Shown here: positions 34,358 to 45,019 of the stretch, piece after piece | Layout: the number at the start of each line of letters is the position of its first letter | Position numbering within the stretch: the stretch's first letter is position 1 | Assembly (NCBI RefSeq): GCF_006439395.2 | Contig: NZ_CP083950.1 | Location: forward strand, 3,658,001 to 3,722,000 | Length of the DNA stretch: 64,000 bases | Source: Mesorhizobium sp. B4-1-4 | Lineage (GTDB): Bacteria; Pseudomonadota; Alphaproteobacteria; Rhizobiales; Rhizobiaceae | Direction of reading: 5' to 3' | Notes under the pieces: model-generated | What the model was told of the DNA's origin: nothing | Seen by the model: the letters and a program-made list of their open reading frames with translations, nothing else | Databases searched by the model: none | Program-made: the position numbers and the translations under genes

Positions 34358-34969
34358 ATGGCCAAGCTCTATTTCCACTACGCGACGATGAATGCCGGCA
34401 AGACGACCATGCTCTTGCAGGCATCGTACAATTATCGCGAGCGCGGCATGACGACCATGCTGTTCGTCGCCGGCCACTATAGCAAGGGCGACAGTGGCCT
34501 GATCTCGTCGCGCATCGGGTTGGAGACCGAGGCCGAGATGTTCCGTGACGGCGACGATCTGTTCGCCCGCGTCGCCGAACATCACGGGCGCAGCGCCGTC
34601 CATTGCGTCTTCGTCGACGAGGCGCAGTTTCTCGAGGAGGAGCAGGTCTGGCAGCTCGCCCGCATCGCCGACCGGCTCGACATCCCAGTCATGTGCTACG
34701 GCCTGCGCACCGATTTCCAGGGCAAGCTGTTTCCCGGCTCGCGCGCCTTGCTGGCGATCGCCGACGAGCTGCGCGAGGTCCGCACCATCTGCCGCTGCGG
34801 CCGCAAGGCGACGATGGTCGTGCGCCTCGGCCCGGACGGCAAGGTTGCCCGCCAGGGCGAACAGGTGGCGATCGGCAAGGACGTCTATGTCTCGCTCTGC
34901 CGCCGCCACTGGGAAGAGGAAATGGGCCGCGCCGCGCCCGACGATTTTATCGGCTTCACCAGGGCCTGA
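34358..34969 (+). CDS. tdk: Thymidine kinase (type II)
   Basis: A 203-residue type II thymidine kinase that phosphorylates thymidine to dTMP in the salvage pathway. The P-loop is YATMNAGKTTMLLQASYNY, the DEAQ motif is FVDEAQFLEEEQVWQL, and CYGLRTDFQGKLFPGS is the conserved lasso-adjacent block. A zinc-binding Cys set is partly present (TICRCGRKATM and SLCRRH). ATG 34358 gives MAKLYFHYATMNAGKTT as usual. It is divergent from choX and precedes a small cytochrome c gene by about 100 bases. Confidence 0.95.
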   Translation: MAKLYFHYATMNAGKTTMLLQASYNYRERGMTTMLFVAGHYSKGDSGLISSRIGLETEAEMFRDGDDLFARVAEHHGRSAVHCVFVDEAQFLEEEQVWQLARIADRLDIPVMCYGLRTDFQGKLFPGSRALLAIADELREVRTICRCGRKATMVVRLGPDGKVARQGEQVAIGKDVYVSLCRRHWEEEMGRAAPDDFIGFTRA

Positions 34970-35734: not shown

Positions 35735-36823
35735 ATGGCGACATTGCAGGATTTCGACGCCGAAATTGCCAAGACCAAGCAGGTCGTCCAGGACATGCGG
35801 GCCAGGATCGAGCAGTCCGGCACCATGCTCGACACGCTCGCCACATCGGACAAGAAGATCGGCGACGCCAATTTCGACATCGAGAACGCCCGCATCGAGG
35901 ACGTGCTGAAACAGCAGAAGGTGATGGAAGGCAACATCGCCGACCTGATCATCGGGCTCGAGGACGCGACCAATGTCTTCGGCGCCGAATTCGAGAGCAT
36001 GAAGAACTATACCGGCTGGGAGAACTTCGTCGGCGTCTTTTCGGCGCAGCGCAAGCAGCGCATGCGCACCGACCGCGTCCGCAACATGTCGCTGGCCGGC
36101 AATCTGCAGGAATTGCTGGCCAAGTCCGACACCATCGTCGGCATCCTCAAGGCGCAGAAAGAGATTCTCGACCAACGCTACAAGACCTCCGAGGCCAGCC
36201 TGTCGCAAGTGATCGAGCGCCGCAAGACCACCATGACGAACCTCGAAGCCGTGCAGAAACGCATCGAGGAGCTCAACCCGATGCTGCTCGACATCGAGAA
36301 CAAGATCGCAGCCTCGACCAGCCAGAAGGATCGCACCCAGCTCGAAGGCGAGCGGTCGAAACTGGCCACCGAATACAATGAGAAGCAGGCCAAGGAGCAG
36401 GAACTGCTGGCTGAGAGCCAGACGCTGGAGCGCTACACCTCGATGTTCCAGACCTTCGTCGATTCGCTCAACAACCAGATCGCCGCGCAGTCGACGCTGA
36501 TCAACAAGCTGACCATCGATACCGAGCAGCGCATCGTGCTCTACAAGGCGCTGGAGGATTCGCTGAAGACCGCAGCCCAGCAGGACGTTGCCCACAAGAT
36601 CAACACGCTGGGCAGCCAGGTCGACAACACGGCCGAGGAAACCATGGCCGGCATTGGCGCCGCCTCGCAGAAGCACATCGGCGATCTGCTTGAGATGCAC
36701 GAGAAGAACATGGTCGCCACCGCCGACATCCAGCGCCGCAAGAAGCTCGCGGACGACGCCTTTGCCCGCCGCTTCGACGAGGTGCTGAAGAAGCACAATT
36801 CGGCCAATTACGTGCAGTCATAA
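35735..36823 (+). CDS. Long coiled-coil protein, first gene of the AAA/DUF2333 operon
   Basis: A 362-residue soluble protein, almost entirely helical and charged. Heptad-rich stretches run about residues 5-80 (FDAEIAKTKQVVQDMRARIE), 110-230 (QELLAKSDTIVGILKAQKEI, RKTTMTNLEAVQKRIEELNP) and 235-350. Only NYTGWENFVGVFSAQRKQR (about 90-108) looks globular. There is no signal or membrane helix. ATG 35735 has GGGAGG five bases upstream. The overall helix plan recalls TelA-type toxic-anion-resistance proteins, but no signature was recognised, so this is only a resemblance. It is 39 bases upstream of the next gene and probably scaffolds the ATPase of the operon. Confidence 0.7.
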   Translation: MATLQDFDAEIAKTKQVVQDMRARIEQSGTMLDTLATSDKKIGDANFDIENARIEDVLKQQKVMEGNIADLIIGLEDATNVFGAEFESMKNYTGWENFVGVFSAQRKQRMRTDRVRNMSLAGNLQELLAKSDTIVGILKAQKEILDQRYKTSEASLSQVIERRKTTMTNLEAVQKRIEELNPMLLDIENKIAASTSQKDRTQLEGERSKLATEYNEKQAKEQELLAESQTLERYTSMFQTFVDSLNNQIAAQSTLINKLTIDTEQRIVLYKALEDSLKTAAQQDVAHKINTLGSQVDNTAEETMAGIGAASQKHIGDLLEMHEKNMVATADIQRRKKLADDAFARRFDEVLKKHNSANYVQS

Positions 36824-36862
36824 TTGCCGCGCGCACCGGTGCGACAATCCAGGGCCGATAGC

Positions 36863-38008
36863 ATGACCTCCGAAAACGACGCGGCGGCGCGGTATTTCTC
36901 GGCGATCACGGCAGCGCTCAGCGGCCTTGAAGTGTTCATGCGCGACGACCGTTCGCCGCTCTACCGGCACGGCATCGTCGCCAGGGTCGTCGCCGAATAT
37001 ATCGCCCGGCTCGACAAGTCCTTCTCCTGCTGGCGCAACCGGCTGGGCTTCATGGACACGTTTCGCATTTCGCGCGCCGAAAGCGGCTTCCCGGTGTTCC
37101 AGAACCTGCTCGAACTGGAAAACGACCGCCGCCACGCCGACGCGCGGCTCGCCAACATCCCACTGGCCAGCGAACTGCGCGAGGAGATGGCGGACTTCAT
37201 CCTGCGCCACAAGGAATTCCCCGAGGCGCTGCAGCGGTCGATGGCTGAGCGGCTCTACCTCGAGGACGTCAAGAGCGAGCAAACCTTCGGCCCGTTCATG
37301 CTGGCGCAAACCGCAAATGTTTCGGTCAACCCGAAGACAGCGCGGCCCTATTATCTCGTCCATTGGGCGACCTTCGACGGCAGCGCCAACCTGCCGCTGG
37401 TCTACATGGCGACGGTGGAGGACTCCTCCGAGAACATGATCCGCCAGCTCGTCGACAGGAACGGCAAGCTCAACGACAAGGTCGACATTCCGCTCCCCGT
37501 CGACGGCCTGCTCAATCCCGAGCTTGCCCACCGTTTCGACGATTTCACCGAGAAGAACTCCGCCTACACGCTGTCGCCGGCCACCATCGCGGTCAACCTC
37601 GACAAGGATTTCCCCGAGCTGCATCCCAAGCAGCTGCGCCGCGTGGTGCTCGGTCCCTTTTATTCGGCCGGCATCACCGAGAACAATTCCGTCGTCGCCG
37701 AAGTGCTGGCCAAGGTTCGCAAGCCCGACAATGCCTGGCTGCTGACCTGGACCATCCAGGAAGTCTATTCGAAGAGCGAAAAGCCCGGCCGCAGGGGCCT
37801 TTGGTCGAGCGAGCCGTCGTCCGAGGAATTCTTCATCAACACCGACGATTTGGAAGCCGCGCGCCAGGGCGTGTCGAGCTATGAGAACCATGCGCTGATT
37901 CCGCACGAAGCCTACCAGGCACTCTACGCCGCCGGCGAGGCGCAGAAGATTTTTGCCGGCTACAAGGTTCACATCCTGTCCAACGGGCAGGTGATCTCGG
38001 ACGTCTGA
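36863..38008 (+). CDS. Soluble protein of unknown function, second gene of the AAA/DUF2333 operon
   Basis: A 381-residue protein without signal peptide or membrane helix. The N-terminal third is helical (RYFSAITAALSGLEVFMRDD, VVAEYIARLDKSFSCWRNRL). The middle has beta-rich segments (RPYYLVHWATFDGSANLPLV, YMATVEDSS) and the C-terminus again beta-rich (DNAWLLTWTIQEVYSKSEK). No catalytic motif or family is recognised. It starts 39 bases after the coiled-coil gene and 24 bases before the ATPase gene, so it is probably a dedicated partner or regulator of the ATPase. Confidence 0.65.
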   Translation: MTSENDAAARYFSAITAALSGLEVFMRDDRSPLYRHGIVARVVAEYIARLDKSFSCWRNRLGFMDTFRISRAESGFPVFQNLLELENDRRHADARLANIPLASELREEMADFILRHKEFPEALQRSMAERLYLEDVKSEQTFGPFMLAQTANVSVNPKTARPYYLVHWATFDGSANLPLVYMATVEDSSENMIRQLVDRNGKLNDKVDIPLPVDGLLNPELAHRFDDFTEKNSAYTLSPATIAVNLDKDFPELHPKQLRRVVLGPFYSAGITENNSVVAEVLAKVRKPDNAWLLTWTIQEVYSKSEKPGRRGLWSSEPSSEEFFINTDDLEAARQGVSSYENHALIPHEAYQALYAAGEAQKIFAGYKVHILSNGQVISDV

Positions 38009-38032
38009 CCGCCACACCAGGGAGCATCCTTC

Positions 38033-39943
38033 ATGGACACCGGCCTGACCACCATCCCGGAAGCGGCGATCGAGAAGCATCGCGCCATCGCGCAAAGCTT
38101 CATCACCCGCATCGTCGCGCTGGAGGACCCGTCGCGCGAATCCGGCACGGCATTGGCCGGCACCAACCGCCGCTTCGTCTCGACGGTGTCGGTCGGCTCG
38201 GTGCGCCGCACGCGTGAGGTCGAGCTGTCGAAGACCGTCGGCGCCGTCCATCCCGACGACCAGTTGTTCACCATCCCGCAACACACGCTGTTGTTTCGCG
38301 CCCGGCGCGGCACGGCGATCGCGCTGGCGGTATCGGATGTTTTTGCCGAGGGCTCGGATCTCGAAAGCCTGCAGGCGAAAAATGCCCGCGCGCCCCTCGA
38401 AGGCAACGATGCCGCCATCTTCAAGAAGCTGCTGTCGGCCTCGGCCTACATTTCGGCCTTCAGCCTCGCCTCCTACCTGTTCCAGCTGATCGACAGCAAC
38501 GGCGAGGCGCCGAATGACATCCCCGAGCCGGATTTTCTCTTCGACACACCCCAGGATGCGGTGAAGTCGATCATCGCCGGCCTGGACAAGGCGATAGCAG
38601 GCTCATCCGACGATGCCGACCTGATGACTCGCGCCCGTGCCTTCGCCCGCGTCGCCATGGACGGGCTGCTGGCGCGCAAGGGCCGCTTCGACGGCATCGG
38701 CCCGTTCGAGAGCGCCCATATCCGCATCGACGTCGACGATTTCACCCTCGACGGTTTCGATGTTGCGCCCGGCAAGCGCTCCAAGCCGCTGGTGATGACC
38801 TTCAAGAAGCCCGAAGAGGTCGTCGGCAACCACATCGCCAAATACCAGTCGGTCAAGCTCGCCAAGATGCTGATGGCCTATGACTTCGAGCGCGAACTGA
38901 ACCCCTTCGTCGAACTCGGCGGCTTCCTCTTCACCTTCATCGGTGACGGTGCGCCCGGCACCGGCAAGACGACGCTGATCCAGATGATCGCCGGCCTTGT
39001 CAACGGCTACTGCCAGGTCGCAGGCTACCCCTTCGCCTATGAGAATTTCGGTGTCGACCAGATCTCGTCCTATCAAGGCAAGTCGGGCCAGAACTGCCGC
39101 CAGTTCATCAACAATGTGCTCAATCCGCGCGTCATCGGCTTCGGCACTATCGACGACATCGACCAGGTGGCGGCGCGCCGCTCCGACGACCGCGCCTCGG
39201 CCGGCCAGCAGGAAATCACCGGCGTCCTGATGGACGCCTTCGGAGGAGCGTCCACGGTCGTGCGTGGCAACTGCTCGTTCGGCATGTTTTCCAACTATCC
39301 CGAAAATGTCGACGACGCGCTGCGCCAGCGCGCCGGCGCCCGCTGGCTGGTCGACGGACCGCAGACGCGCGACGACTACATCGACATTTTTGTCCTTCTC
39401 GCCGGCAAGAACCACAAGATTCCGCTGGGCGACCACAAACTCTACGCAGCACAGGAAATCCAGCGCGCCGTCGCGGAAGCCTATGAGCAGCACGAGAAGC
39501 CGCGGGAGGACGGGCTGATGCGGGTCTATGAACGCTACATGAAGGAGAACGGCGCGCCCAGGACCATGGCCGATATCGGCACCTATCTGCGCCTGATCAA
39601 GGATGCCGAGCCACGCTTCACCGGCCGCGCCATCAAGAACATCACCGACGCCATCAAGATGCGCGCCATGGACATCGAACTTCCCGACGACTGGTTCGAG
39701 AAGCCCGAAGCCTTCATGCACAAGAGCTACGACGACAAGAAGGCGATGATCGAGGACCTGCGCGGGCCGTTTTCGATGGACATGGTGATGCAGGAGATCA
39801 ACCGCTACGCGGACAGCGAGTTCCGCTATTCCGACAAGTCCGACGATGCCGCGGTGGAAAAACTGCTGCGCGACACCCGCCTGCGCGAACGCGCGGCCCG
39901 CGAGATGGAGGAGATGAAGAAGAAGGGGCTTTGGAATGCGTGA
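38033..39943 (+). CDS. AAA-family ATPase with large N-terminal domain
   Basis: A 636-residue ATPase. The first about 290 residues form an accessory domain with no recognised motif. The ATPase core starts near residue 295: Walker A GDGAPGTGKTT (about 304-314), Walker B VIGFGTIDDIDQVA (about 367-380, Asp-Asp rather than Asp-Glu), and a sensor or arginine-finger region FSNYPENVDDALRQRAGARW (about 420-440). A C-terminal helical lid follows, ending in a charged coiled coil (LRDTRLRERAAREMEEMKKK). The length and single AAA module exclude FtsH, ClpX and MoxR. It is the likely motor of the five-gene operon. Its substrate is unknown. Confidence 0.8.
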   Translation: MDTGLTTIPEAAIEKHRAIAQSFITRIVALEDPSRESGTALAGTNRRFVSTVSVGSVRRTREVELSKTVGAVHPDDQLFTIPQHTLLFRARRGTAIALAVSDVFAEGSDLESLQAKNARAPLEGNDAAIFKKLLSASAYISAFSLASYLFQLIDSNGEAPNDIPEPDFLFDTPQDAVKSIIAGLDKAIAGSSDDADLMTRARAFARVAMDGLLARKGRFDGIGPFESAHIRIDVDDFTLDGFDVAPGKRSKPLVMTFKKPEEVVGNHIAKYQSVKLAKMLMAYDFERELNPFVELGGFLFTFIGDGAPGTGKTTLIQMIAGLVNGYCQVAGYPFAYENFGVDQISSYQGKSGQNCRQFINNVLNPRVIGFGTIDDIDQVAARRSDDRASAGQQEITGVLMDAFGGASTVVRGNCSFGMFSNYPENVDDALRQRAGARWLVDGPQTRDDYIDIFVLLAGKNHKIPLGDHKLYAAQEIQRAVAEAYEQHEKPREDGLMRVYERYMKENGAPRTMADIGTYLRLIKDAEPRFTGRAIKNITDAIKMRAMDIELPDDWFEKPEAFMHKSYDDKKAMIEDLRGPFSMDMVMQEINRYADSEFRYSDKSDDAAVEKLLRDTRLRERAAREMEEMKKKGLWNA

Positions 39944-40013
39944 GCTTCCTTCTCCCGTGAACCATCGATGGACAGGCTGCAATCACAACGTCGAAGGACG
40001 AGAGGCCGACGTT

Positions 40014-40067
40014 GACGCCCCCTCTCCCCGTCCTTCACGGGGAGAGGGTAAGGGTGAGGGGCGGCGC
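40014..40067. repeat. Left inverted repeat of the DUF559 island
   Basis: A 54-base GC-rich repeat (begins GACGCCCCCTCTCCCCGTCC, ends GTGAGGGGCGGCGC) containing its own CTCTCCCCGT-CCTTC-ACGGGGAGAG palindrome. Its inverted copy is at 40489-40543, with about one indel and one or two substitutions. The ATG of the nuclease gene begins immediately after it. Confidence 0.85.
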
Positions 40068-40482
40068 ATGCGTGGACCGAAAATCGCGACAACAAAACGG
40101 GCAAGACGTCTGCGCCAGTCGGACAACGATGCCGAAGGCGCACTTTGGACGGAATTGCGCGACCGCAGACTAAACGGCCATAAATTCGTGCGGCAGTTTC
40201 CGATAGGAACCTTCTTTGCTGACTTCGCATGTAGAGAATGCCAGCTGATTGTGGAGGTCGATGGAAGCCAGCATGCGGGCAACAAATACGATCAGGCGAG
40301 GGATCGCTTCATCGTCTCAAATGGCTGGTCTATCCTACGTTTTTGGAACATCGATGTTTTGAAAGATCGGAGCCGTGCTCGAAACGCTATTGGCTGCTAT
40401 TGAGCAGCGCTTGGAGCGCAATATCGACACGCACGACCTTCGATTTATTGCCGCCGAGGGCTATGGGGAGACATGTCTTTGA
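40068..40482 (+). pseudogene. DUF559 (Vsr-like) endonuclease gene with C-terminal frameshift
   Basis: The open frame 40068-40403 encodes 111 residues, RARRLRQSDNDAEGALWTEL, NGHKFVRQFPIGTFFADFAC, and CQLIVEVDGSQHAGNKYDQA, then RFIVSNGWSILRFWNIDVL. This is the DUF559 core, a restriction-endonuclease-like fold with the D-x(n)-E-V-D catalytic set. After residue about 99 the frame ends abruptly in RARNAIGCY. Moving one base near 40368 restores GAVLETLLAAIEQRLERNI and runs to a stop at 40480-40482, so one extra base is likely. It stands in the island between the ATPase gene and its normal neighbour, flanked by inverted repeats. Activity of the shortened protein is doubtful. Confidence 0.75.
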
Positions 40483-40488
40483 CCGTCT

Positions 40489-40543
40489 GCGCTGCCCCTC
40501 ACCCTTACCCTCTCCCCGTGAAGGACGGGGAGAGGGAGGCGTC
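40489..40543. repeat. Right inverted repeat of the DUF559 island
   Basis: A 55-base inverted copy of 40014-40067 (begins GCGCTGCCCCTCACCCTTAC, ends GGGAGGCGTC). With the left copy it brackets the DUF559 gene and lies 48 bases before the next operon gene. Confidence 0.85.
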
Positions 40544-40591
40544 AGCGTTGGCGCTTCGCCTTATCAGGCAAAGCCCCTCGGACCCTTCAAC

Positions 40592-41893
40592 ATGATCAGC
40601 AAAAAACCTGACCTCCTCCGCGACAATGAGCTGATCTACGGCCGGCTGCTTACAGTCGACGAGCCGCATCTCATCCAGCGCTACAACAAGGCGCTTGCCG
40701 CCTTCGGCCTCGAGCCCACCAAGCTGGAGAGCTTCCAGATCGACCGCACCGGCTTCTCGCCGGAAGTGGCCGAGGAGTGCGGCGACTATGACTATCTCGA
40801 CCCCAACGAGGTCAATCGCCGCTTCATCATCCTGACGCCCTCGCAGATCGACCTGCCGGTGGTGCACACCGCCTTCTCCAACACCTCGCAGCTGATGTTC
40901 GAGTTCATGACCAGGAACCAGCGCGCCATCGACGCGCTGACCATCAAGGACGTCATCTACGGCGAGATCGAGGACTCCGTTCCCAAGGTCAACGAAATCG
41001 AGGATCTACTGTCGATCAACCAGGTCGAGTTCAAGGTGCTGTCGGCCGAGAATGTGCTGGGCAAGGCCGCCGAACTCGGCAAGCTCGTCGACCGGCTGAA
41101 ACAGGAACCCGACGCCTGGCGCGACAATGCGATGCTGACCCGCATGGTGGACCTGGCCAAGGTCTGCGGCGACATCCGCGAGAACGCGCTGGTGCCCGAC
41201 CAGGTGATCTTCCGCCATAGCGCCTACTGGACCAGCCATTTCGGCGGACTCTATGTCTTCGTCGATCCCGACATGACGACCGTGATCAGCGACCCGGCCG
41301 CCCCCGGCTTTCGCCGCTCGCGGCCATGGCAGGTGAGCTATCTCTCGATCAACGATGCCGACAAGGTGTTCAAGTTCCTGGCCGCCACCGGCCGCATCGA
41401 GCTGCCCCGCGCTTCCTGGATCGAGGCGTCCGGCTATCTCGAACACCGCGCCGAGATGGTGGTGCGCACGCTGATCCATGACGCCGAGCCGAACCGCAAC
41501 CTTACCGATGTCGACAAGATCTGGCTGCAGACCTGGATCCAGAGCCATGCCGACCTGATCACCAGGGACGGCAATTTCCCCTTCCTCAACGCCGCCAAGC
41601 GCGAGATCGCCCAGCTCGGCCATCTCAAGATCGAGGACGTCCTGCCGCGGCAGCGTTTCCTGGTGATCCGCGCCAAGCCTGACTATCCCGACGCCTGGCT
41701 GACCAACAGGCTGATTTCGGATTTCGTGCCGGCGGACTTCGTCTCGCGCTACATCTTCAACAAGGACCGGTTCTACAAGGACTATGACGGCTTCAGCGAC
41801 GCCTGGCGATCGCATGTTGTCGACGTTCTGAAAACCACATATTTGAAGGACAAAGTGGCGTTTCGCACGCGCCTCTACGGCCTGACTGACTGA
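40592..41893 (+). CDS. Soluble protein of unknown function, fourth gene of the AAA/DUF2333 operon
   Basis: A 433-residue protein with no signal or membrane helix. It begins MISKKPDLLRDNELIYGRLL and contains segments RFIILTPSQIDLPVVHTAFS, VIFRHSAYWTSHFGGLYVFV and RFLVIRAKPDYPDAWLTNRL. I associate it with a family named DUF6638, but from memory only. ATG 40592 is used; the long upstream part of the frame crosses the repeat island and is not real coding sequence. It is 14 bases upstream of the DUF2333 gene, and was probably close to the ATPase gene before the island arose. Confidence 0.7.
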   Translation: MISKKPDLLRDNELIYGRLLTVDEPHLIQRYNKALAAFGLEPTKLESFQIDRTGFSPEVAEECGDYDYLDPNEVNRRFIILTPSQIDLPVVHTAFSNTSQLMFEFMTRNQRAIDALTIKDVIYGEIEDSVPKVNEIEDLLSINQVEFKVLSAENVLGKAAELGKLVDRLKQEPDAWRDNAMLTRMVDLAKVCGDIRENALVPDQVIFRHSAYWTSHFGGLYVFVDPDMTTVISDPAAPGFRRSRPWQVSYLSINDADKVFKFLAATGRIELPRASWIEASGYLEHRAEMVVRTLIHDAEPNRNLTDVDKIWLQTWIQSHADLITRDGNFPFLNAAKREIAQLGHLKIEDVLPRQRFLVIRAKPDYPDAWLTNRLISDFVPADFVSRYIFNKDRFYKDYDGFSDAWRSHVVDVLKTTYLKDKVAFRTRLYGLTD

Positions 41894-41907
41894 GGGGTGA
41901 CACAGCC

Positions 41908-43026
41908 ATGCTCGATCCGATCGTGAACTTTTTCACCCGGATTTTCCAATGGATCGGCCGCGGCATCGGCCTCGTCATCGGAGTCATCCTGTGGCCGTTC
42001 ATGTGGGCCGGGCGCTGGTACACGCAGCGCGGCTGGATCCTCAAGGCCTTGGTCGCCCTCGCGCTGCTGGTGCTTGTCGGCCTCTACGCCAACTTCTTCT
42101 ACGCCACCCAATGGTGGCGCAATTTCAACCCGAACTATCCCGACACCTACAGCTTCGAGAAACGCAATGTTTCCGCCGGCGAACAGGTTGCCGCCGGCGC
42201 CGGCACCGACACGGCAAAGACCTGCGGCAACTCCGGCATCGCTCAGATTGCCGCCGACCTGATCGACTTCAACGTCAATCAGAACGCCTGGGTCTCGTCG
42301 ATGGTCCTCTACAAACTCGGCCTGTTCGGCATCGACTGGGACGACACGCCATGGATGGACAACAAGGCTTCGTTCCAGCGCGGCATCAATCAGGCGGTGC
42401 GGCGCACAGCCACCGAGCTTGCCGACAACCTCGGCCGTGTGCGTACCACCTCGCAGATCGACACCAATCTCCAGGATGCCCGCGGCCAGCTGCAGTATGA
42501 CGAGTCCATCTGGTATATCAGCCGCAACGGCATGACCGCTACCACGCCTAGCATGTATCGGCGCGCGATGGGCAATCTGCGCTCTTTCAACGCCCGCCTC
42601 GCCACCTGCCAGGCGACTTTCGATGCCCGCGCGGATAATCTGAAGCAATATATCGATCGCATCGCCAGCGACATCGGCTCGACCTCGGCCATCCTCAAGG
42701 AGCGCGCCGAAAACCACAACAATGGCTGGTTCGACTTCCGTGCCGACGACCGCTACTGGTTCGCCTATGGCCAGCTCTATGCCTATTATGGCCTGATGAA
42801 GGGCGCCCAGGCCGATTTCGAGGGCGTCATCAAGGAAAAGCACCTGCAGAGCCTGTGGGACACGATGGACGCGCAGTTCGTCTCGGCGCTGCGCATCCAG
42901 CCTTTCATCATCGCCAACGGCCGGGAGGATGGCTGGCTGCTGCCGACACATCTGACGACCATGGGCTTCTACGTGCTTCGGGTGCGTTCCAACATGGTTG
43001 AAATCAGCAACGTGCTGACGCAGTAA
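41908..43026 (+). CDS. DUF2333 family membrane-anchored protein
   Basis: A 372-residue envelope protein. The N-terminus has a first hydrophobic stretch (GRGIGLVIGVILWPFMWAGR, about 18-37) and a second clear membrane helix (ALVALALLVLVGLYANFFYA, about 47-66). The remainder, about 300 residues, is probably periplasmic and helical (NAWVSSMVLYKLGLFGIDWD, RADDRYWFAYGQLYAYYGLM) with two Cys residues. It matches DUF2333, a family of unknown role in proteobacteria. It is the last gene of the operon and would tether the soluble AAA and coiled-coil parts to the inner membrane. Confidence 0.85.
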   Translation: MLDPIVNFFTRIFQWIGRGIGLVIGVILWPFMWAGRWYTQRGWILKALVALALLVLVGLYANFFYATQWWRNFNPNYPDTYSFEKRNVSAGEQVAAGAGTDTAKTCGNSGIAQIAADLIDFNVNQNAWVSSMVLYKLGLFGIDWDDTPWMDNKASFQRGINQAVRRTATELADNLGRVRTTSQIDTNLQDARGQLQYDESIWYISRNGMTATTPSMYRRAMGNLRSFNARLATCQATFDARADNLKQYIDRIASDIGSTSAILKERAENHNNGWFDFRADDRYWFAYGQLYAYYGLMKGAQADFEGVIKEKHLQSLWDTMDAQFVSALRIQPFIIANGREDGWLLPTHLTTMGFYVLRVRSNMVEISNVLTQ

Positions 43027-43339: not shown

Positions 43340-45019
43340 ATGGCCGAAGTGAAGTCCGACATCGAGATCGCGCGTGGCGCTAAGAAAAAGCAGATCCAGG
43401 AGATAGGCCAGAAGATCGGCATCCCGACCGAACATCTGCTGCCCTACGGCCACGACAAGGCCAAGATATCAGCCGAATTCATCAAGTCGGTGAAGGGCAA
43501 CAAGGACGGCAAGCTGATCCTGGTCACCGCCATCAACCCGACCCCGGCCGGCGAAGGCAAGACGACCACCACCGTCGGCCTTGGTGACGGCCTGAACCGC
43601 ATCGGCAAGAAGGCCATCATCTGCATCCGCGAGGCCTCGCTCGGCCCGAATTTCGGCGTCAAGGGCGGTGCCGCCGGCGGCGGCTACGCGCAAGTCGTGC
43701 CGATGGAGGACATGAACCTCCACTTCACCGGCGACTTCCACGCCATCACCACCGCGCACAATCTTCTGTCGGCGCTGATCGACAACCACATCTACTGGGG
43801 CAACGAGCTCGGCATCGACACGCGCCGCGTCGTGTGGCGCCGCGTCATGGACATGAACGACCGGGCGCTGCGCGAGATCATCTGCTCGCTCGGCGGCGTC
43901 GCCAACGGTTTCCCGCGCGAAGCCGGTTTCGACATCACCGTCGCCTCGGAAGTCATGGCCATCCTGTGCCTTGCCACCGACCTGAAGGATCTGGAAAAGC
44001 GCCTCGGCGACATCATCGTCGCCTACCGCCGCGACAAGTCGCCGGTCTATGCCCGCGACCTCAAGGCCGACGGCGCCATGGCCGTCCTGCTCAAGGACGC
44101 CATGCAGCCCAACCTGGTGCAGACGCTGGAAAATAACCCCGCCTTCGTCCATGGCGGCCCGTTCGCCAACATCGCGCATGGCTGCAACTCGGTCGTCGCC
44201 ACCACGACGGCGCTGAAGCTCGCCGACTATGTCGTCACCGAAGCCGGCTTCGGCGCCGACCTTGGTGCTGAAAAATTCTTCGACATCAAGTGCCGCAAGG
44301 CGGGCCTCAAGCCGGCAGCTGCCGTCATCGTCGCCACCGTGCGCGCCATGAAGATGAATGGTGGCGTCAAGAAGGAAGACCTTGGCAAGGAAAACATCGA
44401 GGCGGTGAAGAAGGGCTGCGCCAACCTTGGTCGCCACATCGAGAATATCAGGCAGTTCGGCGTGCCGGCGGTGGTTGCCATCAACCACTTCTATTCCGAC
44501 ACCGACGCCGAAATTCAGGCGATGAAGGACTATGTCGCCTCGATGGGCGAAGAGGCGATCCTGTGCAAGCACTGGGCCAACGGCTCGGCCGGCATCGAGG
44601 ACCTCGCCAACAAGGTGGTGGCGCTGGCCGAATCCGGCGCCTCGCAGTTCGCGCCGCTCTATCCCGACGCCATGCCGCTGTTCGAGAAGATCAACACCAT
44701 CGTCCAGCGCATCTATCGCGGCTCGGAAGCGATCGCCGACAAGTCGGTGCGCGACCAGTTGCATGCCTGGGAACAGGCTGGCTACGGCAACCTCCCGGTC
44801 TGCATGGCCAAGACCCAGTATTCATTCTCGACCGACCCGAACCTGCGCGGCGCGCCGACCGGCCACACCGTGCCGGTGCGCGAGGTCAGGCTTTCGGCGG
44901 GTGCCGGCTTCGTCGTCATCATCTGCGGCGAGGTCATGACCATGCCGGGCCTGCCCAAGGCGCCGTCCTCGGAAAAGATCTTCCTCAACGAGGCCGGCCA
45001 GATCGAAGGCCTGTTCTAA
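43340..45019 (+). CDS. fhs: Formate--tetrahydrofolate ligase
   Basis: A 559-residue formyl-THF synthetase that makes 10-formyl-THF from formate, THF and ATP. The P-loop is [18 protein letters not shown] (about residues 68-85). Other conserved blocks include [40 protein letters not shown] and [20 protein letters not shown] near the C-terminus. The length is typical of the bacterial tetrameric enzyme. It links one-carbon units from formate or methylotrophic and purine pathways. It is a single-gene unit with its own terminator. Confidence 0.97.

Follow-up and report, generated by a model that had tools for sequence, protein, structure and literature searches.

Classic-clade AAA ATPases (PF00004), among them FtsH/i-AAA, Afg2 and Rpt2, carry a Walker A motif, an aromatic-glycine pore loop, a sensor 1 residue and an SRH arginine, and the logic of Vps4-ESCRT-III and PspA/Vipp1 is that of a AAA motor working at a membrane on a partner of helical build. 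Here we report a five-gene locus (genes A to E) of Mesorhizobium sp. B4-1-4 (Rhizobiaceae), in which the product of C shares these four motifs with the classic clade but differs from it in an N-terminal domain of ~285 residues without a match, in a Walker B motif with DD instead of DE, and in partners A, B and D that appear to be obligate. The likeness of A and C to the two membrane systems would be one of action; no sequence relation to them was found for A, and nothing there corresponds to the putative adaptors B and D.

The window, the whole stretch of 64,000 nucleotides that was analysed (G000:C1:3658001-3722000), lies inside a complete 6.27-Mb genome. On its plus strand it encodes A (positions 35735-36823; 362 aa; helical/coiled-coil, of no known family), B (36863-38008; 381 aa; soluble, no match in Pfam or NCBIfam), C (38033-39943; 636 aa; a AAA ATPase carrying an N-domain of its own), D (40592-41893; 433 aa; DUF6638, PF20343) and E (41908-43026; 372 aa; DUF2333, PF10095, with one or more N-terminal membrane segments). 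The locus is flanked by two conserved neighbours on the same strand, thymidine kinase upstream (34358-34969) and formate--tetrahydrofolate ligase downstream (43340-45019). The A-B, B-C, C-D and D-E spacings are 39, 24, 648 and 14 bp, with an island filling the 648 bp, and all five reading frames are intact, which confirms the first-pass annotation of five genes on one strand, closely spaced except at the island. Every gene is under purifying selection (median dN/dS 0.05 for A, 0.08 for C, 0.11 for D, 0.11 for B and 0.16 for E), strongest in A, and because gene order is also kept across classes, the arrangement is not due to chance. Hydrophobic segments are present in E and absent from A, B, C and D. 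When the proteins were searched with profile HMMs, Pfam recognised only the AAA core of C, DUF6638 in D and DUF2333 in E; it gave no match for A or B, and NCBIfam and PADLOC added only weak AAA-domain matches. The literature searched describes no function for any of the five genes, in line with the earlier view that no member has a recognised job.

Among 299 Pseudomonadota genomes, a search for DUF6638 was positive in 20, and alignment searches of the same genomes found complete A and complete B in exactly these 20; C lies with A, B and D in every locus examined. The order A-B-C-D and the common strand are kept wherever the contig is long enough, in the stretches around these 20 and in 80 loci from a named collection, and this order spans Rhizobiaceae, Rhodobacteraceae and Vibrio. 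Annotated Vibrio records show A-B-C-D followed by mfd, with identities to the window proteins of 36% (A), 30% (B), 39% (C) and 25% (D), and a Sinorhizobium record reads thymidine kinase, A, B, C, then DUF559 and ISRm16, then D, E and formate-THF ligase. In one non-alphaproteobacterial genome (G050), the genes A-B-C-D-DUF1523 nest inside Rhodobacteraceae with a support of 100/100, which suggests that the five were acquired by transfer as one unit. Since widely divergent bacteria carry the same four genes as a set, A, B, C and D almost certainly form one machine, and by this pattern of gene content the true unit is the four-gene core rather than five genes. The first-pass annotation had read the locus as a self-contained five-gene membrane machine: the motor, its helical partner and two soluble unknowns are indeed co-conserved in fixed order, and they do not fall into separate characterised families, but the membrane gene is lineage-specific and does not belong to the core.

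C matches the Pfam AAA model from residue 306 with 43.6 bits (cut-off 21.2; E 5e-11) and aligns with i-AAA, Afg2 and Rpt2. Its N-domain (residues ~1-285) has no recognised relative and contains no recognised MIT-like domain, in line with the earlier description of an ATPase with a novel N-terminal domain of about 290 residues. Within the AAA core (~286-450), the Walker A motif GDGAPGTGKT (304-313) fits GxxxxGK[TS] and is invariant in 22 sequences, as are sensor-1 N421 and the arginine-finger candidates R431/R433/R437 (a further candidate is G531-R532), and the pore loop SYQG (Y347-Q-G), whose Tyr-Gln-Gly is likewise invariant, aligns with SKYLG of Afg2. Judged by these motifs, the components of a classic substrate-threading AAA motor are present in C. 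The Walker B motif (residues 374-377, with D374-D375) reads IDDID in each of the 22 aligned sequences and likewise in Vibrio, being invariant from there to Mesorhizobium, and so departs from the hhhhDE pattern. Going by AAA proteins in general, an aspartate at the position of the catalytic Walker-B glutamate may make ATP hydrolysis slow or tuned, and hydrolysis by C, which has aspartate there, could be slow or absent.

A has a single proline in 362 residues, the invariant P182, and this near-absence of proline makes an all-helical protein plausible. Of the near-continuous coiled coil proposed earlier, the helical character is thus credible, while sequence periodicity supports continuity of the coil weakly. 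The most conserved stretch of A is SLKTAxQQxxAHxIN (residues ~276-290; about 36560-36604 in the window), which lies in a wider segment, ALxxSLKTAxQQxxAHxINxxG (residues ~272-293), that has the top conservation of A from Vibrio to Mesorhizobium. Four relatives from two genera (G043, G103, G250 and G262) hold only a variant, A', and E between thymidine kinase and formate-THF ligase, with A' directly preceding E; B and D are missing genome-wide in all four, and C is missing at the locus. A' is without the segment around ALxxSLKTAxQQxxAHxINxxG in 4/4 cases and keeps the remainder of A; in G262 the gap lies a few residues off, and this A' is missing one more segment besides. The dN/dS of A' (0.19-0.31, against 0.05 for full A) reflects relaxed purifying selection, and A' is not a pseudogene. 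Because the segment is gone in all four A' that lack B and D, and C at the locus, we infer that it is where the motor or the adaptors engage A, and the remaining A probably has a function with E that outlives the loss of motor and adaptors. The motif could instead be a site for B or D, or mediate self-assembly, and not be a site for C, and the losses in the two genera may trace to two events only.

The best explanation, which we hold tentatively and with somewhat less than even confidence, is a four-protein AAA remodelling machine in which C, with B and D, would remodel assemblies of A, acting in Rhizobiaceae at the inner membrane with E. C would assemble into a ring, with B and D as obligate adaptors or cofactors and A as the substrate, gripped at or near residues ~272-293, and a pull by C on this segment would disassemble or remodel the A assemblies. 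In Rhizobiaceae A would act at the inner membrane together with E (DUF2333), and in Rhodobacteraceae the neighbouring place is taken by DUF1523.

A possible but less probable arrangement reverses these roles, making B and D the substrates or products of C, which would serve as a dedicated ATPase for their folding, assembly or activation, with A as an organising scaffold only. The co-occurrence of B and D is as tight as that of A, and some lineages show translational coupling of C and D, with overlaps of 13 bp in Phyllobacterium and 4 bp in locus L029; but where B and D are lost, A and E stay and A drops a single conserved segment, most simply explained by contact between this segment and the parts that went missing. 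Also against this arrangement, neither B nor D has an obvious catalytic motif or a match in the PDB by profile or fold. B, the soluble unknown of the first reading, is predicted to have a helical N-terminal part and a beta-sheet middle. D, also called a soluble unknown, likewise has no hydrophobic segment and no described function, but it is not without a family, matching PF20343 with 236.6 bits (cut-off 27; E 7e-70). We found no mention of DUF6638 in the literature searched and no function described for the family, which in the sampled genomes always occurs in the context of the A-B-C-D core. Profile comparison found no solved relatives of B, D or E in the PDB, and Foldseek searches of the PDB returned nothing below E 0.2 for the AlphaFold2 models of the two proteins (pLDDT 74 for B, 66 for D), which are of modest quality and built from shallow alignments; this result is weak evidence of new folds in both.

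E is a DUF2333 protein with a membrane anchor, as proposed before, matching PF10095 with 75.4 bits (cut-off 22; E 5e-21) and having a hydrophobic stretch at residues 39-67 and a weaker one at 16-34; its domain is presumed to be periplasmic, with two invariant cysteines, C106 and C234. In twelve distant loci the fifth gene is instead a member of DUF1523 (PF07509) with two hydrophobic segments. DUF1523 was considered as a disguised DUF2333 and rejected, the hhalign pairs being negative, and hhalign detected no homology in any pair among A, B, the N-domain of C, D, E and DUF1523. E is present in 71/71 B-positive genomes of Rhizobiaceae and B in 0/27 E-negative ones; DUF1523 is present in 41/41 B-positive genomes of Rhodobacteraceae and B in 0/10 DUF1523-negative ones, and the Fisher p-values for these counts, which ignore kinship and are thereby inflated, are descriptive. 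Both families are widespread without A-D: DUF2333 occurs in 67/299 genomes, mostly without the core, and DUF1523 also exists without it. In the Vibrio locus no membrane gene adjoins the core, which shows that membrane action is not intrinsic to it. In other alphaproteobacteria (L205-L211), DUF2333 lies near UspA-like and NifU-like genes, named by eye from sequence starts, and this context may hint at a function of DUF2333 of its own. The one paper that mentions DUF2333 and the four that mention DUF1523 in the literature searched do not, by their titles and abstracts, concern this system.

The membrane gene found beside the core in two lineages fits a narrower proposal, that of a membrane-remodelling ATPase pair with a logic like that of Vps4 and ESCRT-III, in which polymers of A would give the inner membrane its shape or mend it, to be recycled by C. 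C is a classic-clade AAA protein with an intact pore loop, and A would be its all-helical partner, kinked at a single invariant proline and bearing a short motor-linked segment. We nevertheless consider this pair rather improbable, since neither the PF04012/PspA/IM30 nor the ESCRT-III profiles match A at E<=1 and C has no recognised MIT-like domain.

The island between C and D contains a DUF559 endonuclease-like reading frame (39936-40403, plus strand), which is not part of the machine, and a palindrome CCCTCTCCCCGT-N5-ACGGGGAGAGGG (40020-40048); a second palindrome lies on its other side (40508-40536). The genome contains 18 palindromes of the form CCCTCTCCCCGT-N5-ACGGGGAGAGGG, and a control with the reversed pattern gave 0. 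DUF559 is found at the C-D junction (39936-40591 in the window) in 32/77 Rhizobiaceae loci (L041, L146 and 30 more), the other Rhizobiaceae junctions measuring 9-63 bp or overlapping, with L055 as an empty site; the island is possibly a mobile element that inserts recurrently and favours this site, or an old resident that was repeatedly lost. A Fic-family gene (HPFNDGNGR) is found between B and C in L056 (8207-8995) and in L036, L040, L052, L080, L081, L094 and L100. The record of L146 (CP090106.1) is titled pSymB, but its length of 3.7 Mb and its genes for choline transport and housekeeping suggest that it may be a chromosome under the wrong label.

Such insertions of Fic and DUF559 genes would suit a role in bacterial defence or as an effector system triggered by stress, as would the patchy presence between genera (71/121 in Rhizobiaceae, 41/90 in Rhodobacteraceae) and the weak matches of the AAA domain of C to the IetA and TRIP13 models. 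In Rhizobiaceae loci, however, the site is constant, with thymidine kinase on one side and formate-THF ligase on the other (present in 78/103 and 79/103 stretches, respectively, nearly all the Rhizobiaceae ones), and together with the strong purifying selection, on A above all, this argues against a mobile defence island. PADLOC matches are limited to the AAA domain, without an IetS or HORMA/CD-NTase partner and with nothing for B, D or E, and 2.9 million viral contigs gave no match to C and one chromosomal-looking match to A. The role in defence suggested by the first-pass annotation is accordingly unlikely, and we give it very little credence.

A tellurite or TelA-like system against toxic anions or envelope stress, with A as a distant TelA, is scarcely credible: A resembles TelA/KlaA (PF05816) in size and helical make-up, the first reading having seen a likeness in shape only, and over a short stretch VGVFSAQRKQR resembles LSNLFSSFKARL, but A has no Pfam TelA match at E<=1 and no detectable sequence or profile relation, its hhalign probability against the TelA alignment (0.4%) being no better than that of reversed or column-shuffled TelA, and a true TelA gene sits elsewhere in the same genome. 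That TelA-family gene lies at G000:C1:1307639-1308631 (L129), and its counterpart in the relatives L130 and L131 has a neighbour of substrate-binding/von-Willebrand-like type.

The preferred reading stays with C, B and D acting on A. In a bolder form, which we regard as doubtful, A-B-C-D would be a distinct membrane-remodelling class, Vps4-ESCRT-III-like but with an unrelated A, consisting of a helical polymer (A), a motor of its own that recycles it (C), two dedicated adaptors (B and D) and interchangeable periplasm-spanning partners (DUF2333 or DUF1523). The comparison provides a context for DUF6638, DUF2333, DUF1523 and two proteins without a family, and ties four of these into one co-conserved motor system of plant symbionts, marine Rhodobacteraceae and Vibrio. 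It also singles out a short stretch of A that is lost along with the motor.
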